A stretch of DNA of 64,000 nt from the NCBI RefSeq assembly GCF_001485535.1, contig NZ_BCMZ01000002.1:186001-250000 (forward strand), in the 5' to 3' direction. Each line of letters begins with the position of its first letter. Positions within the stretch are counted from its first letter, which is position 1. The DNA comes from Halobacterium sp. CBA1132. GTDB taxonomy: Archaea; Halobacteriota; Halobacteria; Halobacteriales; Halobacteriaceae. Both the position numbers and the translations under genes were made by a program. Positions 9,452 to 32,256 of the stretch are shown one piece after another. The notes under the pieces are model-generated. The model worked only from the letters and a program-made list of their open reading frames with translations. It made no database searches and was not told where the DNA came from.

Positions 9452-11575
9452 TTACGCCTCCTCGACCGACTCCTCAACCGGCTCTCCATCAACGCTTTGG
9501 ACCTCCTGCCCGGCGCGTTTGCGAGCGTACTGTGCCAGTAGTTCGCTCTCGACGTCCTCGACCGGGAAGTGGCAGGCTGCTTCGTGGTCGTCGTCTTTGA
9601 ACGCGGATCGTTCGGGGTTAGTCGTCCGGCATTCCTCGCTGGCTTTCGGGCACCGCGGCGCGAAATTACACCCCTCAGGGAGGTTGACCGGGTTGGGTGG
9701 TTCGCCCGGTAACAGCACCCGCTGACGATCGATGCTGGGGTCTGTTTTCGGTGATGCAGCCAGTAGCGACGCTGCATACGGGTGTTTGGGGCTTTCGACA
9801 ACTTCGCGGGTGTCGCCGGTCTCGATGACGCGGCCGAGGTACATCACCGCTAACCGGTTGGCGATCTGCGTGAGACTAGCGAGGTCGTGCGAGATGTAGA
9901 CGATGCCGATGTCGCGCTTGTCAGCCATCTCTCGCAGGATATTCAAGATGTTTGCCTTCAGCGACACGTCTAGCATCGATGCGGGCTCGTCGCAGATGAG
10001 AAGCTTCGGCTGCAATACAAGCGCCTGCGCGATGGCAACGCGCTGGCGCTCCCCACCGGATAGTTGAGCGGGCACCTGGTCGAGATATTTCTCGGGCGGG
10101 TTGAGACCAACGTCGGAGACGGTTTCTCGGACCCGTCGGTCGATGGTCTCCTTGTCGTGGCCCTGAATCTTGAGCGGTTCGGAGACGGCATCCTTGACAC
10201 GCTGGCGTGGGTTCAGCGAGTCAAACGGGTCCTGGAAGATGAACTGTACCTGCGAGCGGAACTTCTTGGTGCTCTCCTCGAGCAGGTCGTCGACAGGCGT
10301 ACCGTCGACGTAGATATCTCCGCCAGTCCGTGGTTGAAGTGCTGCGATGACTTCGCCCAGTGTGGACTTGCCACACCCTGACTCTCCCGCAACGCCGAGA
10401 ATTTCACCTTCACGGACTGTGAGGTCGACACCGTTGACGGCCTTGACGTAGTCCGGCTCGGCGCCGCGCAGGTCATCGAAGATGGACTGGGTCTGTTTGA
10501 ACCACTTTTCCAGGTCCTCGGTCTCGAGGATGACATCCCCCGCCTCACGGGACGTTTCGTCGTCTTGCTCCGTCTCTATGCCCCACGTCTCGGGGTCAGT
10601 GGCTGCCTCACGCATGTCGTCGGCTTCTTCGGGGTAGTAGCAGGCCGATAGCTGACTGCCGTTCGCGGTCAACGGCGGGTGCCCCTCTTCGCACTCTTCC
10701 GTCGAGAACGGGCACCGGTTGCGGAACACACACCCGGTCGGCTCCTCCGTCAGGTCAGGTAGTGAACCTGGGATAGAAATCGCCTGCTTGTCGAATTCGT
10801 CGACCTCCGGGAAGGCGTTCTGTAGCCCCATCGTGTAGGGGTTGGTCGGGTTCGTGAACACGTCGTAGGTCGCGCCCTGTTCCATCACCTTCCCCCCGTA
10901 GAGAACCGACACTTCGTCACACGTTTCGGCGACGACCCCTACGTCGTGGGTGATGAGTAGCATCGAACTATCGACTTCGTCCTGAATTTCTAGGAGCTTG
11001 TCGATGATCTTGTCCTGAACGATAACGTCTAGGCCAGTCGTCGGCTCGTCGGCGATGATGAGGTCTGGCTCGAGGGCGAGCGCCATCGCAATGGTGACGC
11101 GTTGACGCATTCCGCCAGAGAACTCGTGGGGGTAGTCGTTCGTCCGCGCGGGGTCCAGACCGACGATTTCGAAGACCTCGTCGACACGCTCGTTGGCCTC
11201 TGCTTTGGAGACGTCCTTGTGTTTCCGGATAGCCTGTCGGATCTGCGCACCGACGGTCATCACGGGGTCCAGTGAGTCCATCGCACTCTGTGGGATGTAG
11301 GAGATCTCTTCCCACCGCACGTCCTGCCACTCCTTCTCCGACAGATCGACCAGCTCGCGGTCTTTAAACTGGACGCTGCCCGCTTGGACTTCACCGTTGT
11401 CGTCCAGCAGACCGAGAATGGTCTTCGCGATGGTCGACTTTCCGCATCCGGACTCGCCGACGAGGCCGTAGTTGTCCTGTTCGCCGATGGAGAAGGAGAC
11501 ATCGTTGACGGCGTGGATGTCCTTCTCCGACGTTTCGTACGTGATCTTGAGGTTGTTGACTTCGAGTAGCGTCAT
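9452..11575 (-). CDS. Fused oligopeptide ABC transporter ATPase (DppD-DppF type, two ATPase domains)
   Basis: Single chain of 707 residues that supplies both ATPase domains of a peptide/nickel-type importer. The N-terminal half has Walker [10 protein letters not shown], signature SGGMRQR and DEPTTGLD; the C-terminal half has a second [17 protein letters not shown] and DEPASMLD. Each half ends with the oligopeptide C-terminal extension and its cysteine cluster (for example CVFRNRCPF and CNFAPRCP), which in some relatives ligates an iron-sulfur cluster. The ATG at 11575 overlaps the permease stop by 4 bp (ATGA); an in-frame start further upstream would lie inside the permease gene. It is the fourth gene of the operon. 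Confidence 0.95.
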
Positions 11576-12492
11576 TCTTGCTCCGTTTGCAGATCCGGAT
11601 TGACTAGTTCCTCGAACGCGCGGCCGACTAGGAAGACGGCGGTCGTAACGGCTGCAATACCGAGGGCTGGCGGGAGGACCCACCACCACGCAACCCGCAT
11701 CGCACCTGCGCGGAAGACCTGCTCGAGCATCCGCCCCCAGGAGGTCATCGTCGGGTCACCGAAGCCGAGGAACGCCAGCGACGCGCCAGCAACAATCGAC
11801 CAACCGAACGCGTAAGCGGTGTAGAGGAACCCGATACCGAGCACGTTCGGGGCAACGTGCAGGAACATCGTCCGCATGTGCCCCGCGCCTCGTGCTCGCG
11901 CGGATTTGACGAAGGTCCGCTCTTTGACGGTCATGACCTCGGATCGGATGACCCGTGCGGGCATCTTCCAGAGGAAGACGACGAGCACGGCGGTGATTAG
12001 CCAGATGTTCGGGGAGACGAACGAGAGGATGACCAGCGCCATCGGTAGGAACGGGAGCGCGAACGTCAGGTCGGTCAGCCGCATCAGCACCTCGTCGACA
12101 CGGCCACCGAAGTACCCGCTCGTGAGACCCACGAGGAAGCCCAGCACGCCGGTGCCGATGCCGCCGAACAGCCCCACAATTAGCGTCGGGCGTGCACCCG
12201 CGAGGAACTGGCTGAAGATGTCCTTCCCGTAGGACGTCGTTCCCATCGGTGCCTTCGCGGTAGGGCTTTCGAGACGCATCATCGACCCACCGGAGCGCAT
12301 CGTATGCTCGATGGGATGATGGGGTGCCAGATACGGGCCGAACAAGCCAATAAAGACGAACGCCATGATGATGGCGAAGCCGATTTTGGCTGAAGTGTCT
12401 TCGAGAACCACTCTCAAAGTACTACCAGCCCGCGACAGTTCTTCTCGAAGGCGATCTTTCGCGGTTTCGACGTCAAGTGCGTATCCCAACAT
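11572..12492 (-). CDS. Oligopeptide-type ABC permease, DppC family
   Basis: Inner-membrane permease subunit of 306 residues, with one N-terminal membrane helix, a long extracellular loop and the five-helix BPD_transp_1 domain. The coupling-helix motif appears as VKSARARGAG. It pairs with the DppB-type subunit upstream, whose stop codon overlaps this start by one base (TAATG), while its own stop overlaps the ATPase start. Together they form a heterodimeric pore for whatever the permuted binding protein delivers. Confidence 0.94.
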   Translation of the reverse strand: MLGYALDVETAKDRLREELSRAGSTLRVVLEDTSAKIGFAIIMAFVFIGLFGPYLAPHHPIEHTMRSGGSMMRLESPTAKAPMGTTSYGKDIFSQFLAGARPTLIVGLFGGIGTGVLGFLVGLTSGYFGGRVDEVLMRLTDLTFALPFLPMALVILSFVSPNIWLITAVLVVFLWKMPARVIRSEVMTVKERTFVKSARARGAGHMRTMFLHVAPNVLGIGFLYTAYAFGWSIVAGASLAFLGFGDPTMTSWGRMLEQVFRAGAMRVAWWWVLPPALGIAAVTTAVFLVGRAFEELVNPDLQTEQE

Positions 12493-13490: not shown

Positions 13491-15413
13491 TTACGAGAAG
13501 TCGGGCTGGTCAAGCTCGGAGCGCGTTGCGTGGCCGTGCTCGACGCGCTCGTCGAAGGCCTCCCAGGCGTCACCTTCCGGCCAAACGAGCATGTCGTTGC
13601 TGGTGAACGTGTAGCCCGCCTGCTCGAGCATCGTCTTGGCCTGCTCGGGGTTGTATTCGTAGGGCTCGGTCTCCCCGTAGAAGGGCGTCATCAGTGGAGT
13701 GAGTAGGTTTTGGCCGTCGATAGCCTGTCCCTGTCCGGAGAGGACGTTGTCGACGAAGCTCTGTTTGTCGAAGGCGTGGCTCAGTGCGACACGGAACGTC
13801 TTGTCTCGGAACAGCGGAACGATGTGATTGAGGTGGACGTCTGTGGGAACGTAGTTCCGCGAGGTCTGTTTCTCGACGCCGTCGGCCTGTGCCGCGCGGT
13901 TAGCTTGCTGGTTGGAGACCGTCATCCCGATAGCGTCGATGTCGCCAGACTGCATCGCGCCGATAAGCGTCGAGACGTTCCCGACGTTGACCTCGACCAT
14001 CTCGTCGATGCCGTCGCCGGGGACGAAGTGTTCCTCGCCGACGAGTTCCCGCCGCGTGTCCTCGTCCCACAGCCAGTGGTCGTCGTGTTTCGAGAGGCGC
14101 AGCTCTTGGCCCTGCGACCAGTTCTCGAACTGGAACGGACCGGTCCCGATGGGGTTGTCGGGGTTGTACTCGGAAGGATTGTCGACGTCCTCCCAGCGGT
14201 GCTTGGGAATGATGGCACTGCGGACAGCGCGCTGGGTGACGAACGAGGCGTCGGGCTCAGTGAGGTTGAACCGCACGCGGCCGCCGCCGCTGGTCGAGAC
14301 CACTTCGACGCTCTCGATGGTCCGGTAGAACGGGCCCTGCTGGGGCGCAGTGTGCTGTTTGTACTGTTCGACGCTGAACTTGACGTCCTCGGGAGTGAAC
14401 GATTCGCCGTCGTGCCACGTCACTCCCTCCCGGAGGTCCATTTCGACGGTAGTGTCGTCGACAACCTCGTGGCCGGTCGCCAAACCGGGGACAATCTCCA
14501 GTTGTGGTGAGGCGTCATACAGCCCGTCGTAGACGTTCAAGAGGCGCTTCTCTTCCATCCCACCGGTCGACCAGGGGAGATTCGTCCCCTGCATGCCGGC
14601 GGTAACGCCTTTGACCCACGTCGTTGAGTCGCCCCGCGGCTGAAGGTTCACCTGCGTCCAGATGAACGAGTCCCGGGTCGTCCCGTTACCGGGCGTGGGG
14701 ACGTACCCTTCCCAGTTTGCCGTGTTGGCGACGTTGATGACGTCGGGGAAGTTTGCGGCGATGATGTAGGCGTCCTCGCTGAGCTTGCGCTGGATTTCGT
14801 GACAGATTTCGGCCCGTGCTTGCTGGTCGCCAATCGTCTGGGCCTGCTCGTCAAGCAGCTCAGTGATCTCGTCGTTCTTGTAGTTGTAGTAGTTCCCCCC
14901 GGTCTCCGGGTGGGCACGCATCAGGAACGGATTCGGGTCGAGTCCGCGCTGGGGGTCGGGCCCGTGGAGGTTCATCACGACCGGGGCCGGATGACCGATG
15001 TCGGCCCGCCAGAACTCACCGTAGCGCGTGCTTGGCTGGACGTTAACGAGATTGGTTGGCACCCCGATGGAGTTGAACGAATCTTGGACCGTCAAGGCGA
15101 ACTCGCGCATCCACGGCGTCTCCGACTGCGCGAAATGGGTCGTGACCGACGGGACCGACTGGCCCTCGACCGCCGTGTACTCGAACTGGACCGCCTCGTC
15201 GTTGGCTGACACACCTTTCGTCTCGACAGGCCACTCCTCCCAGAACCGCGATTCGATGGAGCGACCATCGCCACTGGGCTGGTCATTGCTACTTTGGTTG
15301 CCGTTGCCACCGCAGCCGGCTAACGCCGAAATCCCCGTTGCGCTCGCGACGCTGATGAATCGCCGACGCGACACCTCTCCTTTCGTGACTTCGAGCGGTT
15401 TTTCTCGCGACAT
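13491..15413 (-). CDS. Tat lipoprotein substrate-binding protein, SBP family 5, apparently circularly permuted
   Basis: Extracytoplasmic receptor of the operon, 640 residues. A twin-arginine signal (SRRRF, residues 15-19) ends in the lipobox LAGC, so Cys34 is the lipid anchor. The order of segments is abnormal. Residues about 75-235 match what is normally the C-terminal part of family 5 proteins (MREFALTVQDSFNSIGVP, then NYYNYKNDEITELLDEQ, IQRKLSEDAYII). Residues about 245-640 match the normal N-terminal and middle part (VYDGLYDASP, REGVTWHDGESFTPEDV, GTGPFQFENW, FRVALSHAFDKQ) and stop just after the AGYTF segment, where the C-terminal part would normally follow. The ATG at 15413 puts the twin arginine near the N-terminus; a TTG at 15467 is less likely. 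Confidence 0.9.
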   Translation of the reverse strand: MSREKPLEVTKGEVSRRRFISVASATGISALAGCGGNGNQSSNDQPSGDGRSIESRFWEEWPVETKGVSANDEAVQFEYTAVEGQSVPSVTTHFAQSETPWMREFALTVQDSFNSIGVPTNLVNVQPSTRYGEFWRADIGHPAPVVMNLHGPDPQRGLDPNPFLMRAHPETGGNYYNYKNDEITELLDEQAQTIGDQQARAEICHEIQRKLSEDAYIIAANFPDVINVANTANWEGYVPTPGNGTTRDSFIWTQVNLQPRGDSTTWVKGVTAGMQGTNLPWSTGGMEEKRLLNVYDGLYDASPQLEIVPGLATGHEVVDDTTVEMDLREGVTWHDGESFTPEDVKFSVEQYKQHTAPQQGPFYRTIESVEVVSTSGGGRVRFNLTEPDASFVTQRAVRSAIIPKHRWEDVDNPSEYNPDNPIGTGPFQFENWSQGQELRLSKHDDHWLWDEDTRRELVGEEHFVPGDGIDEMVEVNVGNVSTLIGAMQSGDIDAIGMTVSNQQANRAAQADGVEKQTSRNYVPTDVHLNHIVPLFRDKTFRVALSHAFDKQSFVDNVLSGQGQAIDGQNLLTPLMTPFYGETEPYEYNPEQAKTMLEQAGYTFTSNDMLVWPEGDAWEAFDERVEHGHATRSELDQPDFS

Positions 15414-15478
15414 TCCACTCCCTTCTTTCTCCCATACCTGCCTGAACTTGGCCCCGAAATCCGACAATCATCATCATT

Positions 15479-15775: not shown

Positions 15776-16483
15776 TCAACCGGTCTCGTTCGTGTCTTGG
15801 TCGCCGGAGAAGATCAGGTCAAACAACTGGTTTTCCGCGAGTCGTAGACGTTCACTGAGCGTCGACTGGGCGATGCCAAGTTCGGTCGCGATGTCGTCTG
15901 CCGACGCTTGACGTGGCGTTTCAAAGTATCCCAATTCGTGGGCAGTTTGGAGGACGTTTAGCTGATCGCGGGTGAGTTCGTTTCTGACCACGCGGCCGAG
16001 CTGGCCACTTCCTAGCGGCGCACCCGTCGTCTCAACCTGATTCACGCTCAGGAGCTCGAATTCCCCGAACTGTTCTTGCAGTTTATCGGCGAGTCGCTGG
16101 AAATCGTCCCACTCAGCAACCGTGGCGACACCATTAAAGCAGTCCGGAGTGAGCACTAACCGATTCGGAATTGCCTTCTCTCGCAGAATCAGACCCAGGA
16201 GGAATGGATACGGTTCGTGAGCGACCACCGTCAGCCGGTATGCCTGCTGGTCGCTTTGGTCGTCGGAGACCCGCTCGGAGTAGAATAGCTCGACCCGTGA
16301 AAGGGATGCCAGCGCTGCCTCCGGATCGAACGTGCTCTCCGAGATAACTAGTAGTGACTCGATCCAGTCGCCTTCGGCGGCGTAAAAGGCGTTCTCGAAC
16401 TCGATACGCCGTATTTCCGGGATTTCTGACGCGAGCAGGTCAGCAACCCCGGACCGCTTCGTCTCAAATTCGATGCGAAGAAT
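15776..16483 (-). CDS. Bat-like helix-turn-helix regulator (HTH-10 family), apparent AUU start
   Basis: DNA-binding regulator of the bacterio-opsin activator class, about 235 residues. The C-terminal HTH-10 domain is clear: LTRDQLNVLQTAHELGYF, then ASADDIATELGIAQSTLSERL. The first ATG, GTG or TTG in frame is a GTG at 16228, which would leave 150 residues, but family-like sequence (RIEFETKRSGVADLL, IPEIRRIEF) continues upstream to about 16483 before a TGA at 16492. The only plausible start is AUU at 16483, preceded at 6 nt by GGTGA, a good match to the anti-Shine-Dalgarno end of haloarchaeal 16S rRNA. Alternatively the true ATG was lost and the gene is decaying. It may control the adjacent transport or acid-use genes. 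Confidence 0.75.
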   Translation of the reverse strand: MLRIEFETKRSGVADLLASEIPEIRRIEFENAFYAAEGDWIESLLVISESTFDPEAALASLSRVELFYSERVSDDQSDQQAYRLTVVAHEPYPFLLGLILREKAIPNRLVLTPDCFNGVATVAEWDDFQRLADKLQEQFGEFELLSVNQVETTGAPLGSGQLGRVVRNELTRDQLNVLQTAHELGYFETPRQASADDIATELGIAQSTLSERLRLAENQLFDLIFSGDQDTNETG

Positions 16484-16495
16484 ATTGAATCACCC
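16484..16495 (-). promoter_or_regulatory. Shine-Dalgarno-like GGTGA before an AUU start
   Basis: The minus strand reads GGTGATTCAAT directly before ATT at 16483. GGTGAT is complementary to the 3' end of 16S rRNA and the spacing is typical. Its presence decides in favour of the long reading of the Bat-like gene, since the frame has no ATG, GTG or TTG between its upstream stop and base 16228. Confidence 0.45.
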
Positions 16496-16666
16496 TGGCT
16501 CACCGCTATCGCTCCCGTTCTCACGACGTACAATAAATCTATTCAATTATTATTACAAATACAACAGAACCATCTCGTCAACCGGCGCCGACTGACCTCT
16601 ACAGCATCCAGAGGGAGCCCACCAGCCGATTCCGGAAACTTCCACTTCAGCAGACCTTTCGCCGGA

Positions 16667-17743
16667 TTACAGGCGCGATTGCAGGTCTTTGATGGCCGCC
16701 TCAGTTCCCGCGTCACCGCCGAGGTCTGGGGTCCGTGGAGCGGACTGGTCAGCCAGCTGGTCGGTGACGGCGCTCCAAAGTGCATTAGCGGCGGTTACTT
16801 CTCCGACATCCTCGAGTAGCATCGACCACGAAAGGACGGATGCCAACGGATTCGCAACTCCCTCACCGACGATGTCGGGCGCGCTCCCGTGAACGGGCTC
16901 GAACATTGACGGATACTCGTCACCCGGATGGATATTTCCGGATGGTGCGAGGCCCATACTCCCGGTGATTTGGGCGCCGATGTCGGTCAAGATGTCTCCG
17001 AAAAGGTTCGAGGCGACGAGGACATCGAACTCGTGAGGGCGCCGAATTAAGTCCATCGAGGCCGCATCAACCAGCAATCGCTCGACAGTCACATCGGGAT
17101 ATTCCTCGCTCACTTCCTCAACGATATCATCCCAGAACACCATACTGTGGGCCTGTGCGTTGGATTTGGTGATACTAGTGAGGTGCCCCTCACGTTCGGC
17201 CGCCGCTTGGAACGCCGCGCGAACGATGCGTTCTGTTCCCCGTCGGGTAAACAGCGCTGACTGAATCGCCGTCTCATGATTGAGGGAACGGTGTTCGCGA
17301 CCTCCAATATCGGCGTATTCGCCTTCCGTGTTTTCCCGGTAGACTACGAAGTCGATTTCGCCGGCTTCGTATCCCTTGAGTGGACTCTCGATACCTTCAA
17401 AAAGGACGTTCGGCCGCTTGCAGACGTATTGGTCGAGTCCTTTTCGGATAGGCAGCAAGAGACCGTGGAGTGTCACGTGGTCGGGGACCTCGGGGTGGCC
17501 AACGGCTCCCAGAAAAATCGAATCGGCGTCGGCAAGCTGAGAGAGTCCGTCCTCAGGCATCATCTCCCCATGTTCGAGGTAATACTCGGTCCCCCAGTCA
17601 CGCCGGATAATATCGAATTCGAACCCGTAGTCGTCGGCCACATCCCGGAAAAGCGGGAGGGCCGCGTCAACGACTTCCGGTCCGATGCCGTCGCCGGGAA
17701 TCAGTTCGATGTCGTACGTCGTTGTGGTCTGGTCTTCGGTCAT
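16667..17743 (-). CDS. Tartrate/D-malate dehydrogenase-type decarboxylating dehydrogenase (DmlA/TtuC group)
   Basis: NAD- and Mn2+-dependent beta-decarboxylating dehydrogenase, 358 residues, cytoplasmic. It belongs to the isopropylmalate/isocitrate dehydrogenase superfamily (GDGIGPE near the start; YRENTEGEYADIGGR; ITKSNA; SNLFGDILTDIGA; FEPVHGSAPDIVG). The segment DQYVCKRPNVLFEGIESPL and the length fit the D-malate/tartrate dehydrogenase group better than LeuB or isocitrate dehydrogenase. The ATG at 17743 starts the family-like sequence; the longer form from 17803 adds residues with no homology. It lies in a run of minus-strand genes for organic acid uptake and activation, which supports a role in hydroxy-acid catabolism. 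Confidence 0.85.
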   Translation of the reverse strand: MTEDQTTTTYDIELIPGDGIGPEVVDAALPLFRDVADDYGFEFDIIRRDWGTEYYLEHGEMMPEDGLSQLADADSIFLGAVGHPEVPDHVTLHGLLLPIRKGLDQYVCKRPNVLFEGIESPLKGYEAGEIDFVVYRENTEGEYADIGGREHRSLNHETAIQSALFTRRGTERIVRAAFQAAAEREGHLTSITKSNAQAHSMVFWDDIVEEVSEEYPDVTVERLLVDAASMDLIRRPHEFDVLVASNLFGDILTDIGAQITGSMGLAPSGNIHPGDEYPSMFEPVHGSAPDIVGEGVANPLASVLSWSMLLEDVGEVTAANALWSAVTDQLADQSAPRTPDLGGDAGTEAAIKDLQSRL

Positions 17744-17837
17744 GATTGTCTGGCAGCAGTCGGTCGTTCGTGCGGCACGATTCTTCGGGGCTGCAGACTG
17801 CAACGCCCACCGAATACCGACGTCACCGGATGACAGT

Positions 17838-17872
17838 GGACATGGTCCTCCATCAGCGGCAAGACCATGTCC
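17838..17872. repeat. Perfect 10-bp inverted repeat between dehydrogenase and MFS genes
   Basis: GGACATGGTC (17838-17847) and GACCATGTCC (17863-17872) are exact reverse complements separated by 15 bp. The site lies 95 bp upstream of the dehydrogenase ATG and about 150 bp after the MFS stop. It could be an operator for the acid-use genes or a stem in a transcript; no T-run follows, so a classical terminator is less likely. Confidence 0.6.
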
Positions 17873-18023
17873 CGATGTGGGCGCTGGATTTCATCGGGCC
17901 TCGACTGCATCGCTTGTCGGTCAAGGCTCGCCGTGGCGAAACAGTCCGGCCACGTTTCGCCAGCACGGTTCGTGTATGGAACTACGCACGGCGTATCTAT
18001 GGGGGAAATCGCGCTCTCCGCCA

Positions 18024-19256
18024 TCAGTCGACCACCCACAGAATCACCGTCAGTATAGTCGCGATGCAGAGTATCACCGCCAGGACACCGAACGCCACTC
18101 GGAATCCACGCACATCGGAGAGGTATCCCACTGCTGCGGGCCCAACAGCGCCTGCGGCGACTAACAGCGTCCGGACCACTCCAAGAGACCCCTTCGCGAT
18201 ACTCTCTGGAAGCACAGTAACTAGGTAAGCGCCACGTACTGGCCGATATCCGTGAGCGCCGATGCCGAGCACGATTACCGACGCTCCGAGGCCGATTGCC
18301 CCTGTGGTGCCCGACAGCACGACGAGGGCGACGAGTCCCGCCGTCGCAGTGACAAGAGTCCCCACAACGAGGGGTAAAACGCCGACACGGTCGCTCGCTT
18401 CTCCAGTAACCAGCTGGACCAGACTGACCGCGAAAAGACCGCTGAACAACAGATTAGCGGTTACCGATGGCAGGTTTCCCGCGCCCATGAGATACAGTGG
18501 CAGGAAAGCCACGAGACCGTTGTACACGAACGAGAACAGAATCGTAACAATGACGAACGCCGAAAACTTCGGCCGGCGGAACAAGTCGACGTACTCTCGA
18601 AACTGGGGCGAGCCGTCACTCTCAGTGGCTGCGGGCTCTCGCTCTAGGTGACGTGGCACGCGGATGAGGAACGCGAGAGCGACCACCAGGGCTGCGAGAC
18701 CACCCACCAAAAATAATGTCCGCCACGGGGCTCCGAACACCCCCGGCAAGGAGGTCGCGGCCACGACTGCGGCAGGCGCTGCGACGCCGGCGAGACTACC
18801 GACCGTATCGAAGACACCCAGCGATCGTCCGGTTTCCGTGGGGTAAATCCGCGATAGCAACTCAATTGCGACGGTCTTGTAGGTCCCTGTTCCGGCACCG
18901 ACGAGTAACATCGCGCCCGCCAACACTGCGAACGGCGCATTCACCACCAGTGCGAGCCCGCCGATCCCAGTTACGACGCCACCGGCAGTAATGACGTCTA
19001 CTGAACCCGACCTGTCAGCGATGAACCCCGATGGGAACTGCATCGCGGCGTACACGAGCATAAGTCCCGTGAACGCCAGGCCGAGATCAGTCCGTGAGAC
19101 GTCGTATATCGTTTCGAACTGTCCAAACAGGGGCGGGAACGCGTATCGCAGGAATTTCCCGAGGAACCACACGAGCGCGGTCAGCGCCAGCGCGTCGTAG
19201 CGACGGAAGCGAGACAACGAACCGAGTCGTCCCATCGTGACATCATCGCTCGTCAT
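18024..19256 (-). CDS. Major facilitator superfamily transporter, probably for an organic acid
   Basis: Polytopic membrane protein of 410 residues with about 12 hydrophobic segments in two halves. The loop between helices 2 and 3 carries the MFS signature variant SGFIADRSG, and the second half repeats it as TGEASDRVG. The central cytoplasmic loop holds FLIRVPRHLE. Its position between a hydroxy-acid dehydrogenase and an acyl-CoA synthetase on the same strand suggests it imports the acid these enzymes use, but MFS sequence alone does not show the substrate. Confidence 0.88.
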   Translation of the reverse strand: MTSDDVTMGRLGSLSRFRRYDALALTALVWFLGKFLRYAFPPLFGQFETIYDVSRTDLGLAFTGLMLVYAAMQFPSGFIADRSGSVDVITAGGVVTGIGGLALVVNAPFAVLAGAMLLVGAGTGTYKTVAIELLSRIYPTETGRSLGVFDTVGSLAGVAAPAAVVAATSLPGVFGAPWRTLFLVGGLAALVVALAFLIRVPRHLEREPAATESDGSPQFREYVDLFRRPKFSAFVIVTILFSFVYNGLVAFLPLYLMGAGNLPSVTANLLFSGLFAVSLVQLVTGEASDRVGVLPLVVGTLVTATAGLVALVVLSGTTGAIGLGASVIVLGIGAHGYRPVRGAYLVTVLPESIAKGSLGVVRTLLVAAGAVGPAAVGYLSDVRGFRVAFGVLAVILCIATILTVILWVVD

Positions 19257-19355
19257 AATCCAAGTAAGTGGTCTCGCCCGTCGGTGGTCGAGACGCAGAG
19301 CTGTCCGTTCGCGTCCGACGTTCGCCGGTAGTCGGTCGGGACTTGCATTGATGCT

Positions 19356-21521
19356 CTACTCACGAGTCCGGATGAGAGCGTCCACAGCCACGGGCCCATT
19401 CTCGGTGACGACGACCGGGTTGAGATCCAGCTCCGCGATTGTGTCGACACTGGCCGCCAACTCACCGACACGGGTGAGGAAGTCGACGATAGCATCGACA
19501 GATAGCGCGTCACCCTCACGGCGGTCCCGGAGGAGCGACGCCAGCGCTGTCTCTTCAACGGCTGCTCTTGCATCAGCCCGTGAGAATGGGGGCACTAGTG
19601 TGGCACTCTCATCGAGCGCCTCCACGAGAACACCGCCTGGACCGACAGAGACGAGCGACCCAAACACCTCGTCGGGCGCGATGCCCGTAATCGCCTCAAC
19701 GCCGTCGTCGACCATTGGTTGGACAAGCACGCCCTCGATATCGTCCTCCTCGACGGATGCCAGTGCAGCATCCATCACGTCTTCGTAGGCAGCACGGACG
19801 GCTTCAGCCGAGTCGACGCCGAGCCGCACGGCGCCGACATCAGTGCGGTGGGGGAGTGCCGGCGAGTCGATTTTGAGCACGACCGGGAATCCGACGTCCT
19901 CAGCTGCTGCGACCGCCTCCTCGACATCGGTTGCCAGATAGGTTTCGACGACCGGAATGTCGTAGCTGTCCAGCAAGCGTTTGGATTCTTGCCATGTGAG
20001 CACTCGACCACGCGGCACGTCGACGCTCATAGCGGTCTCGCGCGCGTCGACGACCAGATCAGTCCGTGACGGCTGGTTTGTCAAGTGGGTCTGTGCAGTG
20101 ACAAAGTCGACCGTCGACGCGAGCGCATCCAGACAGCGGCTGGGGTCTTCATAAACGGGCATCGATTCACGGAGACGTGCGTACGGCGGTGTTTCCGTCG
20201 GCTTATCGGGTTCCTTGCGTCCGGTCCAGAGCACGTAGACGGGGTCGTCAGCCTCAGAAGTGATCGTTGCTAGGTCATCGGCGATGGTCTCCGCACGCTC
20301 GTCGACGCCGGGCAGCCCGATGGCGAAGACGTAGGCGTCGAACGCGTCGTCGTCGAGCACGGCATCGGCAATCTCAGGGAGAACGTGAGCGCCATAGCCG
20401 CGAATATCAGCAGGGTTGTTGAACCCGCCGTACGTCAGCAACTCCTCGATGTTCAGGAGCTGCTGTTCAGCTTTGCCATCGATATCCGGAAGGGCGAGGT
20501 TCCGTTCGGCGGCCATATCGGCCAACAGGCTCGCAAGCCCACCACTGGTTGAGGCGATACAGACCCGGTTCCCGTCGGGGTCGTCGTACGCAGTGTGGGC
20601 GCTTGCGCGCGCCAGCAGGTCGGGGATGTCGGGGACGCGTTCGACGCCCGCCTGATTGAATGCCGCTGTCCAGCCGTCGTCATCGCCGGTGAGCGACCCG
20701 GTGTGACTTAGCGTCGCTGCCTCCGCTAGTTCGGAGGCACCGATTTTCACCGTAAGGACCGGCGTCCCGTTCCGAACGGCGTGTTCCGCGACTCGCAAGA
20801 ATCGTTCGGGTTCGTCGACTCCTTCGATATACGTACAGACGACGTCGACATCGTCTTGCTCAGCGAGATAGGCGACGTAGTCAGCAGCCGTAAGGTCGAC
20901 CTCGTTGCCGGTCGAGACGATGTGGCTGAAGTGGACGTCACTGTCGGCTGCGCGCTCGAAGAACGTCGTAAACGCTAGGGCGCCGGATTGGCTCACGAGA
21001 CCAATCCCGCCAGGTTGTGGTTCCCGCGAACATGTTGCTGTCAGCGTCGCGCCCTCGCTGGCCATGACGCCGATACAGTTCGGCCCGACGACCTGAATCC
21101 CGGTTTCGGTCGCCGTGGCGGCCAGCTCTGCTTCGAGATCGGCGCCCGTGTCGTCGGCTTCGGCGAATCCCGCGGTAAGAACCAGTGCGGCGGGGACCCC
21201 CCGATTTCCTGCGGATTCAACGACATCTACGACGTGTTCTCGTGGGACGCTGACAACTGCTAGATCGACTGTCTCGGGGACGTCTGCGATGTGGTCATAA
21301 CATTCCCGGTCCCAGACTTCGTCTCGTCCGGGGTTGACCGGATAGAGCGTCCCGTCGAACCCGTACTCAAGCAGGTTCTCCACGAGGTTCCCGGAGTAGA
21401 ATGAGTCAGGGCTTGCGCCGACGACCGCAACCGACTCGGGGTCAAACAGCGGATCCAGCTCAGGAATCGACACCGACCCAGTAGACGGACTCCCCGCATC
21501 ATCCGTTTCGTCGCTCAACAT
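19356..21521 (-). CDS. NDP(ADP)-forming acyl-CoA synthetase, fused alpha and beta subunits
   Basis: Cytoplasmic enzyme of 721 residues that joins an acid to CoA with NDP/ATP turnover. The N-terminal CoA-binding domain begins LFDPESVAVVGAS; the succinyl-CoA-synthetase-like domain has GPNCIGVM and the catalytic phosphohistidine His273 in LSHTGSLTGDD; the C-terminal ATP-grasp part shows WQESKRLLDSYDIPV, FPVVLKIDSP and LDLNPVVV. One-chain fusions of this kind act on acetate, other short acids or hydroxy acids in archaea. In this cluster malate, citramalate or a similar acid is a reasonable guess because a CitE-like lyase follows upstream. An ATG at 21554 is an alternative start. Confidence 0.88.
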   Translation of the reverse strand: MLSDETDDAGSPSTGSVSIPELDPLFDPESVAVVGASPDSFYSGNLVENLLEYGFDGTLYPVNPGRDEVWDRECYDHIADVPETVDLAVVSVPREHVVDVVESAGNRGVPAALVLTAGFAEADDTGADLEAELAATATETGIQVVGPNCIGVMASEGATLTATCSREPQPGGIGLVSQSGALAFTTFFERAADSDVHFSHIVSTGNEVDLTAADYVAYLAEQDDVDVVCTYIEGVDEPERFLRVAEHAVRNGTPVLTVKIGASELAEAATLSHTGSLTGDDDGWTAAFNQAGVERVPDIPDLLARASAHTAYDDPDGNRVCIASTSGGLASLLADMAAERNLALPDIDGKAEQQLLNIEELLTYGGFNNPADIRGYGAHVLPEIADAVLDDDAFDAYVFAIGLPGVDERAETIADDLATITSEADDPVYVLWTGRKEPDKPTETPPYARLRESMPVYEDPSRCLDALASTVDFVTAQTHLTNQPSRTDLVVDARETAMSVDVPRGRVLTWQESKRLLDSYDIPVVETYLATDVEEAVAAAEDVGFPVVLKIDSPALPHRTDVGAVRLGVDSAEAVRAAYEDVMDAALASVEEDDIEGVLVQPMVDDGVEAITGIAPDEVFGSLVSVGPGGVLVEALDESATLVPPFSRADARAAVEETALASLLRDRREGDALSVDAIVDFLTRVGELAASVDTIAELDLNPVVVTENGPVAVDALIRTRE

Positions 21522-21711
21522 ACTATCGAGTTCCCCTCTTGAGGGTAATATCATACTCCCGAACCGGGTCAATCACATTCATGCTTTATACCCGGGGTAA
21601 TGTCTGGCCGTTGCGCACGGTCGAGCCGAACAATTCGGCGAAAACGTGGGATAGCCCTATGGAGTCAGATTCAGCAACCTATGGGAGTAGCAACGACAAG
21701 GAGTGTGCGAG

Positions 21712-22566
21712 TCAGCGAACCCCTGCAGCGTCGGCCCGATCGAGGATCGTCCGTGCGCGGTCAACAAGGGGCGGATCGATCATCTGTCCCTCGACGGTGA
21801 ACACACCGCTGTCGGCTTCGTCGGCACGCTCTTTGCCTGTAATCACTTTCTCAGCCCACTCGACCTCGTCGGGGGCCGGTGTGAACGCGTCGTTGATGAC
21901 GTCGACTTGATCGGGGTGAATGGCCAGTTTCCCATCGAACCCGAACTCCATGACTGTCCCGGTCTGCTCGCGGAGCCCATCAGTGTCGTCAATATCTGTG
22001 TAGACGGTGTCCAGTGCGTTGACACCGGCCGCACCTGCAGCAGCGACGACACGCTGGCGAGCGTACAGTGACTCCGTTTTCTCATCGGTGACAGTTGCCC
22101 CAATATCGGCCGTGTAGTCCTGGTCGCCGTAGGCGATAGCGACGACGCTTGGTGCAGCCGCGATTTCTTCTGCAGCCACCAGTCCCGCGGCCGTCTCAAT
22201 CAGTGGGATGACATCGACCGATGCTGCGCCTACGTCTGTGAGGTGGCTCGTTAGCGTCGCAACCGTTTCAGCGCGGTCGACTTTCGGGAGAACGACGCTG
22301 TCAGGGAGTGACTCGCCATCCCGAAGTACACTGTTGACATCTTGTAATCCATCGCGGTTCACGGGATTGATCCGGACGCTAATCGAGGGCGTGGCATCGT
22401 CCAGTGCATCAATCGTCTCGCGGACAGCCTGACGAGCGTCCTCACGTGCTGCTGGCGCCACAGCGTCTTCGAGGTCGAATATTACCGCGTCAGCCCCTGA
22501 ATTAACCGCCTTCCGCATCATCTCTGGTTCGTCACCTGGACAGTATAACAGCGAACGCTGGACCAT
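21712..22566 (-). CDS. CitE/HpcH-family CoA-ester lyase (malyl-CoA or citramalyl-CoA lyase-like)
   Basis: Mg2+-dependent TIM-barrel lyase of 284 residues. It starts RSLLYCPGDEPEMM, has the conserved DLEDAV, the RINP arginine segment, PKVD and the metal-binding glutamate in IPLIETAAG, and ends with the LAIHP element typical of the citrate-lyase beta/malyl-CoA lyase group. It would split a hydroxyacyl-CoA to acetyl-CoA plus a 2-keto acid. With the acyl-CoA synthetase downstream it can form a two-step acid cleavage path: activation, then cleavage. Which hydroxyacyl-CoA is used cannot be told by eye. Confidence 0.87.
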   Translation of the reverse strand: MVQRSLLYCPGDEPEMMRKAVNSGADAVIFDLEDAVAPAAREDARQAVRETIDALDDATPSISVRINPVNRDGLQDVNSVLRDGESLPDSVVLPKVDRAETVATLTSHLTDVGAASVDVIPLIETAAGLVAAEEIAAAPSVVAIAYGDQDYTADIGATVTDEKTESLYARQRVVAAAGAAGVNALDTVYTDIDDTDGLREQTGTVMEFGFDGKLAIHPDQVDVINDAFTPAPDEVEWAEKVITGKERADEADSGVFTVEGQMIDPPLVDRARTILDRADAAGVR

Positions 22567-22644
22567 GAGTAGGAGTCACATAGGCAGCAAGAAAAACCCT
22601 ATCGCCACCCGAATGGCTTTGACAGCTTGGCTGAATGCGAACAT

Positions 22645-23406
22645 ATGGACGACGGAACCGAGCAGAAGCGGTCAACAGCCGCGCTGTTCGACGAACAGGC
22701 CGCAGCCTATCTGGATAGTCGTGTCCACCGAGTCGGAGACGACCTCGACCAGCTGGTTGAGTGGGTCGGCGCCGCTGATCGCGCATTAGATGTCGCCACG
22801 GGCGCGGGCCACACCGCCGGCGCACTTGCTGAAGGCGGGGCCAATCAGGTTGTTGCGGCTGATGCTGCACCGACGATGGTCGCCACGGCGACGCAAGCGT
22901 TCCCCGGTGACATCGGCGTTATTTGTGATGCCGAACGGTTGCCGTTCGCCACAAATTCGTTTGACGCGGTGACGTGCCGTATCGCTGCACACCATTTCCC
23001 CGAACCGACGGATTTCGTGGCGGAAGTGGCTCGAGTCCTCAAACCTGGTGGAACGCTTGCCTTCGAGGACAACGTCGCACCCGACGACGAGGTACTCGAC
23101 GACTTTCTCAACCGCGTCGAGCGAATCCGTGATCCGACGCACGTCCGTTCGCATCGCGTTGGCGACTGGCTCCGCTGGTTCGAGACTGCAGGCCTGACTG
23201 TCGAGGCTTCACGCGTTGTCACGAAGACGCTCGATTACGACGAATGGGTCGCGAATGTCGACTTGTCCACTGAGCGGCGCAAACGCCTCGAGGCTGCCTT
23301 CGCCGATCGGCCCCCCGAAGCAACTGAGGCGTTTGAAATCACGGACACAGACGATGGGATCGAGTCATTCGCGAACCTCAAACTGCTGGTTCGCGCGACC
23401 CGCTAA
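22645..23406 (+). CDS. SAM-dependent methyltransferase, UbiE/class I type
   Basis: Soluble methyltransferase of 253 residues with motif I DVATGAGHT (about residues 50-58), an acidic motif II (ADAAP) and post-motif CRIAAHHF and LKPGGTLAF. The ATG at 22645 was taken because the six extra residues from 22627 add nothing. It is the only plus-strand gene here and lies between the divergent lyase gene and the convergent ABC ATPase gene. Substrate is unknown; members modify quinones, lipids or small acids. Confidence 0.88.
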   Translation: MDDGTEQKRSTAALFDEQAAAYLDSRVHRVGDDLDQLVEWVGAADRALDVATGAGHTAGALAEGGANQVVAADAAPTMVATATQAFPGDIGVICDAERLPFATNSFDAVTCRIAAHHFPEPTDFVAEVARVLKPGGTLAFEDNVAPDDEVLDDFLNRVERIRDPTHVRSHRVGDWLRWFETAGLTVEASRVVTKTLDYDEWVANVDLSTERRKRLEAAFADRPPEATEAFEITDTDDGIESFANLKLLVRATR

Positions 23407-23436
23407 CGACCGACGCTGTAGCGGTGAACTCTCCCG

Positions 23437-25596
23437 TCAGTCGTTTTCGATTGGATTGTCGATCTGTGCGTGGTTTTCGTCGAGGGGGTCCTCATTCGGG
23501 TGGAAACACGCCGCTTCGTGGTTCTCTCCGACCCACGTGTCGAGTGTGGGCTCCTCGCTGTAACATCGGTCAGTGGACTTCGGACAGCGTGAGGCAAACC
23601 GACAGCCAGTCGTTCTCGTCGCGGGGCTAGCTGGCTTCCCCTCAAGGGTGACCCGATCACGGGTCCCGCGCGGGTCCATCTCCGGAATTGCTTCCAGCAA
23701 CGCCTCCGTGTACGGGTGTTTTGGGCTTGTGAAGATTCGTGCTGTATCGCCCCGCTCCACGAACTGACCGAGGTACATGATTGCCAGACGATCGGCGATA
23801 TAAGAGAGGCTGGGCAGGTCGTGGGAGATGTACAGGACGCCGATCTCTTCTGTGTTGACCAGTTCCCGGAGGAGGTTCAGTACATCTGCTTTCAGCGAGA
23901 CGTCGAGCATCGAGGCGGGCTCATCACAGATCAACAGGTCGGGGTCGATAACTAGCGCTCGTGCAAGCGCCACTCGCTGGCGTTGTCCGCCGGAGAGTTC
24001 GTCCGGGTATGCGTCTAGATAATGCTCGGCTGGCGCCAGGCCGACGCGTTCAAGCGTTTCTTTGATGGCCTGTTCCCGTTCGTCGAGGCGGTATCCGTGG
24101 ATTGTCAGTGGTTCCTTGACGAGTTGTTTGACCGTCATGCGGGGGTTCAGGGAGTCGTATGGATTCTGGAAGATGACCTGAACTCGCTCGCGGAACGACT
24201 GGAGGTTCCCATCCTGATAGTGGTCGTGAGAGTGCCCGTCGAACGTGAATGTACCCGCGCTGGGCTCCTCAAGAAGTGCCAGTGTCTCTGCGAGTGTCGA
24301 TTTCCCGCAACCGGATTCACCGACGATACCGAGGATTTCGCCACGCGCGACCGAGAACGACACATCATCGACGGCACGAACGCGTGTTTCTGTGCTGTCG
24401 AAGACGTCACGGAGGACATCTCCCTGGCGTTCATACGCTTTCCGAAGTGTATTTGCGACCCCGGTAATCGACGGTGACCCCCCCTCCAGGGGAAGCCTGC
24501 CGAGGAGGGAACTGTTGTTCTCGTACCACTTGGTCAATCCTTCAACTTCAAGGAGGACCTCGCTGTTGCTGGCCCCTGCTTCGTGTTCAGGACTTCCCCA
24601 CGTTGATGGGTCGTCAGCCCGTTTTCTCATTCGGGTCGCACGTTCAGCGTGGTGGCAGGCAACTCGCTGGTTTCGATATGGAAGCTTCTCCAGCTGCGGC
24701 TCTGTGGTCTCACACTCTTCGTCCGCAAAGGGGCATCGTGAGTTGAACGCACACCCAGTAGGGGCCTCGTCAAGCATCGGCGGTTCGCCGGACATCGAGA
24801 TTAGCTCGTCGCTATCGGCGTCCTGTGCAGGATAGGCCTGCTTGAGCCCCATTGTGTACGGATTCGATGGATTGAGCAGGACGTTATCCACGTGGCCTTG
24901 CTCCATGACTTGGCCACCGTAGAGCACGGACATCTCGTCGCAGGCTTCAGCGATGACACTCAGGTCGTGAGTGATCAGGAGGAGCGAGCTGTCCGTCTCC
25001 TCCTGAATCTGGAGGATGTTATCGATGATCTGATCTTGCACAACGACATCGAGGCCGGTCGTCGGCTCGTCGGCAATGATTAATTTCGGGTCGAGTGCGA
25101 GCGCCATTGCAATAACGACCCGCTGGCGCATGCCCCCAGAGAAGCGATGAGGGTACTCGTCGATCCGTTCGGGATCCAGTCCGACGGTTTCGAATAGCTC
25201 ACGGGACCGGCGATGAGCGTGCTGTTCGGAGACGTCGCGGTGAGTCTGGATAGCCTGCCGGATCTGCGCGCCGACCGTCATTACAGGGTCGAGTGCATCG
25301 ATGGCGGTTTGCGGGATGAACGCGATCTCCTCCCAGAGGAAGTCGCGGCGCTCCGCCGCGGTCATCGACCGCAGGTCCCGTCCCTCGAACTCGATCTCCC
25401 CGGATTCGATTGCTGCACAGTCGGGTAGCAGCCCCAGAATTGCCTTCGCAGTTGTCGACTTCCCTGACGCTGATTCGCCCGACAGTGCGTAGTTGACGCC
25501 GTCCTCGATAGTGAACGAGACACCGTTAACGCTGTGGCGGGGGCCTTCTTCGGTGTCGTAACGGACCACCAAGTCGTTAACGTCGAGGAGCGTCAT
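23437..25596 (-). CDS. Second fused oligopeptide-type ABC ATPase, without neighbouring permeases
   Basis: Two-domain ATPase of 719 residues, similar in plan to the one at 9452-11575. The first half has GESASGKST (a serine-alanine-serine variant of the Walker A loop), SGGMRQR and DEPTTGLD; the second has [17 protein letters not shown] and DEPASMLD. Cysteine clusters CAFNSRCPF and CRFASRCP follow each half. A linker of about 60 residues between the halves (residues 355-415) is longer than in the first copy. No permease or binding protein gene lies on either side in the window, so it either energises permeases encoded elsewhere, or the operon was split. Confidence 0.93.
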   Translation of the reverse strand: MTLLDVNDLVVRYDTEEGPRHSVNGVSFTIEDGVNYALSGESASGKSTTAKAILGLLPDCAAIESGEIEFEGRDLRSMTAAERRDFLWEEIAFIPQTAIDALDPVMTVGAQIRQAIQTHRDVSEQHAHRRSRELFETVGLDPERIDEYPHRFSGGMRQRVVIAMALALDPKLIIADEPTTGLDVVVQDQIIDNILQIQEETDSSLLLITHDLSVIAEACDEMSVLYGGQVMEQGHVDNVLLNPSNPYTMGLKQAYPAQDADSDELISMSGEPPMLDEAPTGCAFNSRCPFADEECETTEPQLEKLPYRNQRVACHHAERATRMRKRADDPSTWGSPEHEAGASNSEVLLEVEGLTKWYENNSSLLGRLPLEGGSPSITGVANTLRKAYERQGDVLRDVFDSTETRVRAVDDVSFSVARGEILGIVGESGCGKSTLAETLALLEEPSAGTFTFDGHSHDHYQDGNLQSFRERVQVIFQNPYDSLNPRMTVKQLVKEPLTIHGYRLDEREQAIKETLERVGLAPAEHYLDAYPDELSGGQRQRVALARALVIDPDLLICDEPASMLDVSLKADVLNLLRELVNTEEIGVLYISHDLPSLSYIADRLAIMYLGQFVERGDTARIFTSPKHPYTEALLEAIPEMDPRGTRDRVTLEGKPASPATRTTGCRFASRCPKSTDRCYSEEPTLDTWVGENHEAACFHPNEDPLDENHAQIDNPIEND

Positions 25597-27998: not shown

Positions 27999-28826
27999 TC
28001 AGGTTGTTTCCGTCCATGTTGCGACTGTTGCAATACCGATGCTCATTCCAAGCCAGCTGAGAAGGCTGACGGCGCTTGTAAGTGGAGAAGCGGTGGCAAC
28101 AGATGGGCTAACCGCCAGCGCAGGTTGAATTGCCATCTCCAGGACGAGGCCACGGAACGCACTTGCCGGGCTGAGGCCCGTAAAAACGGCAATTGATCCG
28201 GCGTCGATGATGTTCGTCGACACGAGTGTGACTACGACGAGGTCGAGCGCAATTGCGAGGGCGAGCAGCATGCCAACACTGGCGGCGATCGCTTCTCGAT
28301 TCGTTCGTGTTGCTGCAGACACGGTAAGCGCAATACCGGAAGCAACGAGAGTGTAGACTGCAGCAAACATCATGAATCGAAGGTATACAACCGGTGTGTC
28401 GCCTGCTTGGTGCGTCGCGAAGAATTCGACGGCTGGGGTTGCCCCCAGACTAGCAACAACGCCAGCGACACCGAGTGTCGTGAGCACGACGACGAGTAAG
28501 ACTGCGGTCCGTCCGATGAAGACGCCTGCCACGTATTCCAGTCGTGAGACGTCGTACGTTCGGATAACATCTAACTCCCCGCGTTCATCATCACCACGAA
28601 TAGACCGATAGACGTACGCAAACGCAAGCGTCGGGATCAAGACCTCCACCGGCAGTAGCAAGTCATAGGTTAGCGATACATATCCGCCGGGAGACCCCAT
28701 CGAAACCCCACTAAGTCCCACAATAACACCGAAAAAGCCGATGCCGACAGCGATGACTACCCGGTTGCGGAGGAGCGTCCAGAGTTCCCGCTCAATAATG
28801 GCGAACACGCAATCACGTCGCTGCAT
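27999..28826 (-). CDS. nosY: NosY-like ABC permease (copper-maturation transporter), set 1
   Basis: Integral membrane protein of 275 residues with six hydrophobic segments and the ABC-2 layout of NosY. A cytoplasmic stretch YRSIRGDDERGELDVIRTYDVSR after the second helix is typical. In nitrous oxide reductase systems NosFY drive NosD-dependent sulfur or copper delivery. It is last in a minus-strand operon after nosL, nosD and nosF, and its ATG overlaps the nosF stop by one base (TGATG). The substrate here is unproved because no nosZ is present in the window. Confidence 0.87.
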   Translation of the reverse strand: MQRRDCVFAIIERELWTLLRNRVVIAVGIGFFGVIVGLSGVSMGSPGGYVSLTYDLLLPVEVLIPTLAFAYVYRSIRGDDERGELDVIRTYDVSRLEYVAGVFIGRTAVLLVVVLTTLGVAGVVASLGATPAVEFFATHQAGDTPVVYLRFMMFAAVYTLVASGIALTVSAATRTNREAIAASVGMLLALAIALDLVVVTLVSTNIIDAGSIAVFTGLSPASAFRGLVLEMAIQPALAVSPSVATASPLTSAVSLLSWLGMSIGIATVATWTETT

Positions 28827-29584
28827 CAGCGCTCACCTCCGTTCGCACCCGGACGAGTAACACCACTAGTTTTCCTGCGAAACACCGCCGCAAACGCCTC
28901 ACGTAGCGTCTCTGTATCAGTCGCCTCCAGAATGCTCTCGGGATCACCATCGAGAACGAACTCGCCGTCTGAGAGGAACAGCGCGCGGTCAGCGCGCGCT
29001 TCAATAGCTGCGAGGTCGTGGCTCGCCGTGATAACGAGTCGCCCATCACTGGCGATGCTTTCGATCACGTCGAAGATATGGTCGGCGACATCTGGATCAA
29101 GACCGCTGGTCGGCTCGTCGAGAATGACGATAGGCGGGTCACCGATGAGCGCTTGCGCGATGCCCAGGAGGCGAGTCATACCTCCCGACAGTTCATCTAC
29201 ACCACGGGTAGCGGCGTCATCGAGACCGACTTCAACGAGCAGGCTGTCAGGGTTAGCACTTTCCTCCACGAGATCCGTGTAGAAGCCCAGCGTCTCACGG
29301 GCGGTGAACCCCGACCGAAAGCCGGGTGTTTGGGGCAGATATGCGACAGTTCGGCCCGATGCTGTTGGCCGCGTGACTGTCCCGGTGTCGAGTGACCGCA
29401 AGCCTGCGAACAATTCGAGGAGCGTCGTCTTCCCGGATCCGTTCGGTCCGACGAGTGCTGTGAACTCGCCTGACTGGAGTTCGACGGATGCCTCTTGGAG
29501 GACGGTTACGTCTCCGAACGCGTACGATGCGTCCGTGAACGCAAGTGGTGGCTCGTCCGTGGCGCGGGCGTTTTGTTCGGTCAT
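28826..29584 (-). CDS. nosF: NosF-like ABC ATPase, set 1
   Basis: ATPase of 252 residues with Walker A GPNGSGKTT, Q-loop LPQTP, signature LSGGM, Walker B IVILDEPTSGLD and H-loop ASHD. Family resemblance and context give NosF. Stop and start overlaps link it to both neighbours: 4 bp with nosD (ATGA) and one base with nosY. It would energise NosY at the inner face of the membrane. Confidence 0.9.
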   Translation of the reverse strand: MTEQNARATDEPPLAFTDASYAFGDVTVLQEASVELQSGEFTALVGPNGSGKTTLLELFAGLRSLDTGTVTRPTASGRTVAYLPQTPGFRSGFTARETLGFYTDLVEESANPDSLLVEVGLDDAATRGVDELSGGMTRLLGIAQALIGDPPIVILDEPTSGLDPDVADHIFDVIESIASDGRLVITASHDLAAIEARADRALFLSDGEFVLDGDPESILEATDTETLREAFAAVFRRKTSGVTRPGANGGER

Positions 29585-31503: not shown

Positions 31504-31504
31504 A

Positions 31505-32143
31505 CTACATCCCGAGCGACGAGATGAGACTCGGCGTCACGTCGTCGAAGGTGGCAAGGTCGCCGCCGTACTTCTCCCGGAACGCCTCGGCATCTGTTCG
31601 GTCGGAGAATCCGATCAGATCTTCTCCCATCGCACCGACGACTGACGAGCCTACAACGTACGTGATATCAGTTGCATCAGCGAACGCTTCTTTCTCGTAG
31701 TGTGTGGAGAGTAGTTGTTGGCCGCCATCAGTTTGGATGTCGTAATCGACGGCCGAGTAGTCCGTGACGTAGAAGGCCTCACGCGTCCAGTTGTCGTGCT
31801 GGAAGTCGAACTGGAACGCTTCCCATGTGCTGTCGAAGCGGGCAGGGTTGTCATGGTCGTTCGGCTGTGCGTCAGCGTAGAAAATCTCAGCAGTCGGCCC
31901 GGGTTGCTGTGTGATCGTCATTCCGCAGACGTCACACGTGGCGGTAGTGGGAATTGTAATTGGGGCCGGCGCATCGTTGTTTCTGCCACTATTGAGGCAG
32001 CCGGCGAGACCAGCAGTTACTGCCGTGGTTGCTCCAACAACGAATTGCCGTCGTGTGATTGGTGTCCGGCCGTCTTCCGGGGTGGTTTGCTGTGGGTGGG
32101 ATTCGTGGTTTGGACAGCGCTCGTTGGGTGAGTGTGGAGACAT
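31505..32143 (-). CDS. nosL: NosL copper-binding lipoprotein
   Basis: Copper(I) chaperone of the Nos system, 212 residues, exported by Tat and lipid-anchored: RR at 31-32, lipobox LAGC with Cys49. The copper site CDVCGM starts at residue 70. The C-terminal half holds REAFYVTDYS and the family signature GFSDRTDAEAFREKYGG. The ATG at 32143 was chosen because it places the twin arginine near the start; the longer frame to 32221 adds leader sequence. It is followed immediately by nosD. Confidence 0.9.
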   Translation of the reverse strand: MSPHSPNERCPNHESHPQQTTPEDGRTPITRRQFVVGATTAVTAGLAGCLNSGRNNDAPAPITIPTTATCDVCGMTITQQPGPTAEIFYADAQPNDHDNPARFDSTWEAFQFDFQHDNWTREAFYVTDYSAVDYDIQTDGGQQLLSTHYEKEAFADATDITYVVGSSVVGAMGEDLIGFSDRTDAEAFREKYGGDLATFDDVTPSLISSLGM

Positions 32144-32256
32144 AGATGGACTGGCGTAGTTTCGTGGGGCCGGCTTCCATCTGAATATGCCCCTTACTAT
32201 AATATAGTGGCACTGGTACAATACTCGAATCGGTTCGAGGAATGAACCACAAACAA

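Follow-up and report, generated by a model that had tools for sequence, protein, structure and literature searches.

Evidence for a conserved class of naturally circularly permuted family 5 substrate-binding proteins in haloarchaea and bacteria

Few nutrient receptors are as common in prokaryotes as the family 5 binding proteins, for which models of structure and annotation presume a single chain order. We describe here a gene of Halobacterium sp. CBA1132 whose product is, with high confidence, a natural circular permutant of the binding proteins of peptide-type ABC importers; it would be a normally working lipoprotein anchored at lobe 2, and it belongs to an old clade shared by haloarchaea and bacteria. 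The reading of the chain as a permutant of a cluster C binding protein is supported by the order of profile matches, a rotation scan, conservation over many genomes and a confident predicted fold, and the circular permutation put forward in the original prediction is in this way upheld. The open reading frame (positions 13491–15413 of the window, by which we mean the whole 64,000-nucleotide stretch analysed; minus strand, ATG start, 640 aa) was confirmed as real, and an alternative TTG start at 15467 would give a chain of 658 aa. The gene and its parts are as follows.

13491..15413, minus strand: substrate-binding protein of family 5 (cluster C), putative lipoprotein, 640 aa, circularly permuted as judged from profile order, rotation scan and predicted fold
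15312..15413, minus strand: twin-arginine signal with lipobox, residues 1–34 (SRRRF...LAGC, Cys34), from the conservation of R16, R17 and C34
15150..15311, minus strand: linker and N-terminal extension specific to the subfamily, residues 35–88, from homologue comparison; model confidence is low to about residue 43
14637..15149, minus strand: segment homologous to the usual C-terminal third, residues 89–259, from the C-part HMM (residues 96–241, i-E 3e-9) and PDB alignments
14619..14636, minus strand: junction of ancestral C-terminus and ancestral N-terminus, residues 260–265 (RGDSTT), from the rotation-scan optimum WTQVNLQP/RGDSTTW
13608..14618, minus strand: segment homologous to the usual N-terminal and middle regions, residues 266–602 (SBP_bac_5 profile 1–285), from Pfam, split profiles and NCBIfam
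13494..13607, minus strand: C-terminal tail past the cut, residues 603–640, subfamily-specific, from homologue comparison; a strand and a helix are predicted

The original prediction held that the segments of the protein stand in the wrong order; the swap stood, with the segments at residues 89–259 and 266–602. It also held that the chain ends exactly at the cut. This does not apply to the 640-aa protein, in which about 38 residues follow, ending ELDQPDFS and kept in the close subfamily, but it does apply to the wider family, whose chains lack this tail and stop right at the cut (AGYxWDxDGxLhYP). As had been proposed, the Tat signal SRRRFISVASATGISALAGC with its lipobox Cys34 lies at the front of the chain, ahead of the transposed segment that begins at about residue 89, and among 20 homologues R16 and R17 are invariant and C34 nearly so.

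The evidence on segment order is of several kinds. First, SBP_bac_5 (PF00496) matches only over positions 1–285 of its 368, at residues 324–626 of the 658-aa form; the match scores 198.7 bits against a gathering cut-off of 32.4, and Pfam at E values up to 10 matched no other family in the binding protein. The NCBIfam models Opp4A, NikA and DppA also align to it over their first parts only. Second, phmmer against the PDB places query residues 319–651 on 59–375 of 1xoc_A and 188–259 on 437–506 (the latter weak when taken alone, i-E 3.3), and query residues 322–625 on 55–341 of 5isu_A and 120–245 on 353–472 (i-E 0.019). With the family profile, both stretches of 1xoc_A are matched unequivocally (1e-72 and 7e-18) and in swapped order, and the profile alignments to 1xoc and DppA show that the C-terminal third of the family is present in the binding protein. 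Third, split profiles for an N-part and a C-part, made from 22 canonical proteins, find the N-part followed by the C-part in 22/22 canonical controls, whereas this order is reversed in all permuted homologues tested, the C-part standing ahead of the N-part in all close homologues, in the first wider set and in the six bacterial proteins tested. Taken alone, the window protein gives a C-part match of modest strength (the residues and value listed above); the split profiles and PDB alignments together do place its N-terminal segment on the C-terminal part of the family, a match whose absence would, by the original prediction, have been a refutation. A further 40 of 40 homologues, picked for matching across the junction, are permuted, and over all fetched loci there are 143 permuted and 55 canonical open reading frames, a count that includes near-copies and comes from sampling biased to permutants. 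Finally, in the rotation scan, cores trimmed of signal and tail were rotated in 5-residue steps and scored against the full canonical profile; on untrimmed chains the scan told little, the match being broken up by residues of the signal and tail, which trimming cured. The score rose from 204 to 256 bits for the window protein, peaking within WTQVNLQP/RGDSTTW, and from 189 to 270 bits for a Nitratireductor protein (L104), while the canonical controls scored best at or near zero rotation.

The predicted structure is in keeping with a single fold. With 76 permuted homologues, AlphaFold2 gave a compact and confident model (pLDDT 89.1, pTM 0.88) in which only residues 1–9 and 13–43 fall under 50; a run with 20 close homologues reached a pLDDT of 42.7, probably on account of alignment depth, and 76 sequences sufficed. 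The best 50 Foldseek matches in the PDB are all family 5-type binding proteins, and sequential Foldseek finds partial fold overlap at a TM-score to the target of about 0.5, which fits a permutant and does not prove one. The permuted-family profile matched 117 PDB sequences; in the best 60 of these the N-part gives the strongest stretch, usually close to the start of the chain, the C-part comes after the N-part wherever alignments were printed, and no permuted family 5 structure is among them. These data also bear on a domain fusion, in which residues 35–260 would be an unrelated or duplicated extra domain on a truncated binding protein and the fold no closed permutant. The subfamily-specific extensions at both ends (residues 35–88 and 603–640) could be read in that way, but residues 89–259 are colinear with the canonical C-terminal third, each part occurs in exactly one copy with no second C-part after the cut, one unbroken profile match is regained on rotation, and the whole chain is predicted as one confident unit; we regard a fusion as very improbable.

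Permuted order is conserved well beyond this genome. Full-length homologues with the same order, 46–84% identical, occur at all 17 named haloarchaeal loci, as the original prediction had suggested checking, and a Halobacterium hubeiense homologue is 93% identical. Among 392 genomes sampled from the order, there are 69 close-subfamily places and many more matches at 29–39% identity that span the junction. Permuted proteins also lie beside permeases and ATPases on plasmids of Nitratireductor, Maritalea, Microvirga, Roseomonas, Ketogulonicigenium and Neorhizobium, and likewise in several genomes drawn at phylum rank around a Ruminiclostridium genome (that behind L053), the centre of our Bacillota search. 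The wider permuted clade, at about 25–40% identity, takes in haloarchaea, Alphaproteobacteria and genomes of the Bacillota-centred search. At identities near 25%, a lone tblastn span was accepted only once the protein itself had been read; the protein of an Agrobacterium locus (L109), junction-spanning by tblastn, turned out to be canonical. Had the order been known from one assembly alone, it might have been the artificial product of a rearrangement in assembly or sequencing, the outcome that the original prediction had named as fatal to it, but the same end-to-end order and the same flanking genes recur in many independent assemblies at 46–93% identity, and such an artefact is thereby refuted as far as we can judge, its probability being negligible.

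The gene heads an operon with the DppBC/OppBC-type permeases and ATPases that characterize family 5 systems, and the order of HTH gene, binding protein, DppB, DppC and ATPase is conserved across the named haloarchaeal loci.

15776..16228, minus strand: helix-turn-helix protein upstream, probable regulator; upstream in 15 of 17 named loci, the H. hubeiense equivalent being annotated helix-turn-helix
12492..13475, minus strand: DppB/OppB-type permease, next gene of the operon (NCBIfam Opp2B/Opp4B); downstream in 17/17 named homologous loci
11572..12492, minus strand: DppC/OppC-type permease (NCBIfam); conserved in the named loci
9452..11575, minus strand: fused DppD-DppF-type ATPase (NCBIfam); conserved in the named loci

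This context speaks to whether the permuted proteins have lost import and now serve as sensors or surface binding proteins. For the divergent permuted proteins L170, L172 and L173, the flanks that were fetched gave no match to DppB/DppC. In the window subfamily, on the other hand, both permeases and the fused ATPase always follow (DppB, DppC and DppD-DppF downstream of the permuted gene in 17/17 named haloarchaeal loci), and most wider-set and alphaproteobacterial members adjoin permeases and ATPases; loss of import is improbable, and a role in transport is probable. The neighbourhood 15776–25596 is kept in Haloarcula and others and holds the HTH gene, a tartrate/isopropylmalate-type dehydrogenase, an MFS transporter, an ADP-forming acyl-CoA ligase and a citrate-lyase-like protein; from these neighbours we would guess that the putative substrate is an organic acid or a derivative of one. 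A second fused DppD-DppF-type ATPase lies at 23437–25596, with no binding protein or permease gene listed as adjoining it, and nos accessory-like genes (NosD, NosF, NosY and NosL-like) were noted by eye only at 27999–32221. Genes for M28 family peptidases adjoin the alphaproteobacterial permuted systems L107, L108, L110 and L201 (Roseomonas, Ketogulonicigenium, Neorhizobium), which could be a pointer to a peptide-like ligand there.

In AliD, domains I and II make up lobe 1, domain I carrying both termini, and domain III makes up lobe 2 (PMC11192437); on this layout the cut of the permuted protein therefore falls in domain III. R383 of DppA binds the peptide and the scoop loop of DppB (PMC12136057). 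In our alignment the cut lies about 15 residues ahead of that position, at about which the window protein, as read from the profile alignment, has Gln; simple dipeptide binding is therefore not to be assumed. We propose that the two ancestral termini, which lay in domain I, became joined by a short linker of about six residues and that the chain was reopened in the loop of domain III that leads from the AGY helix to the following strand. The protein would still fold to the usual two-lobed Venus flytrap, be exported by the Tat route and be lipidated at Cys34, and it would hand its ligand to DppB/DppC, with the fused DppD-DppF ATPase as the source of power; the membrane tether would enter at lobe 2 instead of lobe 1.

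In a tree built from sequences rotated to canonical order, the haloarchaeal, the alphaproteobacterial and most of the Bacillota-search permutants form one clade with support of 99/92. Support is lower in other samplings, at 91/81 in one and with a canonical protein (L031) inside the clade in another, and several long-branch canonical proteins are placed near it. Bacterial and archaeal members are interleaved within the main clade, for which horizontal transfer is the natural reading. Outside it, at least two further independent permutations exist in haloarchaea, with other cut points. A haloarchaeal Opp-like subfamily (L189, L190, L191, L192 and L193), cut just before the AGY helix, is nested among canonical relatives at 100/100, and on the Halobacterium hubeiense chromosome a 621-aa family 5 protein (L175 2516–4378, the same as L194 6610–8472; one genome only) is cut in a loop of domain II and has a DppB-type permease directly downstream. 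The proteins L167, L168 and L213 are permuted and lie outside the main clade, with C-parts near canonical ones and an uncertain placement; they are possibly independent events. L213 is bacterial, whereas L167 and L168 belong to an archaeal family that is not haloarchaeal and is, as we read the sequence, Thermococcales-like. These cases elsewhere in the family (L189–L193, L175 with its other cut, and the outlying L167 and L213) lend some force to the view that the main clade is itself made up of several events, similar cuts having arisen repeatedly in one hot-spot loop, but its support of 99/92, its one cut site and its one junction make this unlikely. Most likely, the main clade is old, comprises haloarchaea and bacteria, and arose a single time, through tandem duplication followed by trimming, with horizontal transfer afterwards.

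Natural circular permutation by duplication has been reviewed for saposin/swaposin and for DNA methyltransferases (PMC3320104), where the expected route is a tandem fusion followed by a new start and a new stop. A chain of just this SBP5-SBP5 kind, 1026 aa long, is encoded by a non-haloarchaeal archaeon (L176, 1633–4710), in which two family 5 binding proteins stand in tandem (N-C-N-C) and are followed by DppB/DppC; it is the kind of intermediate that the duplication model predicts (PMC3320104). This tandem fusion is the one thing that makes the duplication route plausible for the main clade, in which no direct duplication intermediate was seen.

How does this protein compare with known systems? 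It shares with cluster C/family 5 proteins (PF00496; DppA, OppA, AppA, NikA) the same segments, the signature residues and the neighbouring Dpp/Opp-type permeases and ATPase, but it carries the C-terminal third first, has its termini in domain III and would have its lipid anchor on lobe 2. The nearest precedent is TpMglB-2 (Tp0684) of Treponema pallidum, a permuted ABC substrate-binding lipoprotein for which 'Type Ic / Cluster Bc' has been proposed, and which is likewise a natural circular permutant, membrane-tethered and conserved in other species (PMC4990184). TpMglB-2, on the other hand, has the Cluster B fold of the sugar protein MglB, is bacterial, is cut elsewhere and is of unrelated origin; set against Cluster Bc, the window protein has the permuted chain (split profiles, rotation scan), and Pfam at E values up to 10 and the best 50 Foldseek matches show neither the Cluster B fold nor homology to MglB. 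Our literature search, in which subscription journals were thinly covered, found no report of a permuted family 5 or cluster C protein, TpMglB-2 alone being comparable, and the conserved permuted class is apparently an undescribed topological one. We consider it rather more probable than not that cluster C holds a large, ancient and cross-domain permuted class ('Cluster Cc') with at least three independent permutations and, as its hot spot, the loop of domain III beside the AGY helix; selection may have favoured the move of the lipid anchor from lobe 1 to lobe 2 for its effect on the opening or docking of a tethered receptor.

The conserved permuted class suggests that the family 5 fold can accommodate termini moved to lobe 2, and, with several events on record, it offers a rare view of how circular permutation comes about. 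In practical terms, standard profiles match just a part of permuted family 5 proteins, and for the engineering of peptide or nickel sensors the class supplies permutation sites that are already used in nature. Where one genome encodes both a canonical and a permuted homologue, the two form a natural pair for asking whether it makes a difference to transport which lobe is anchored.
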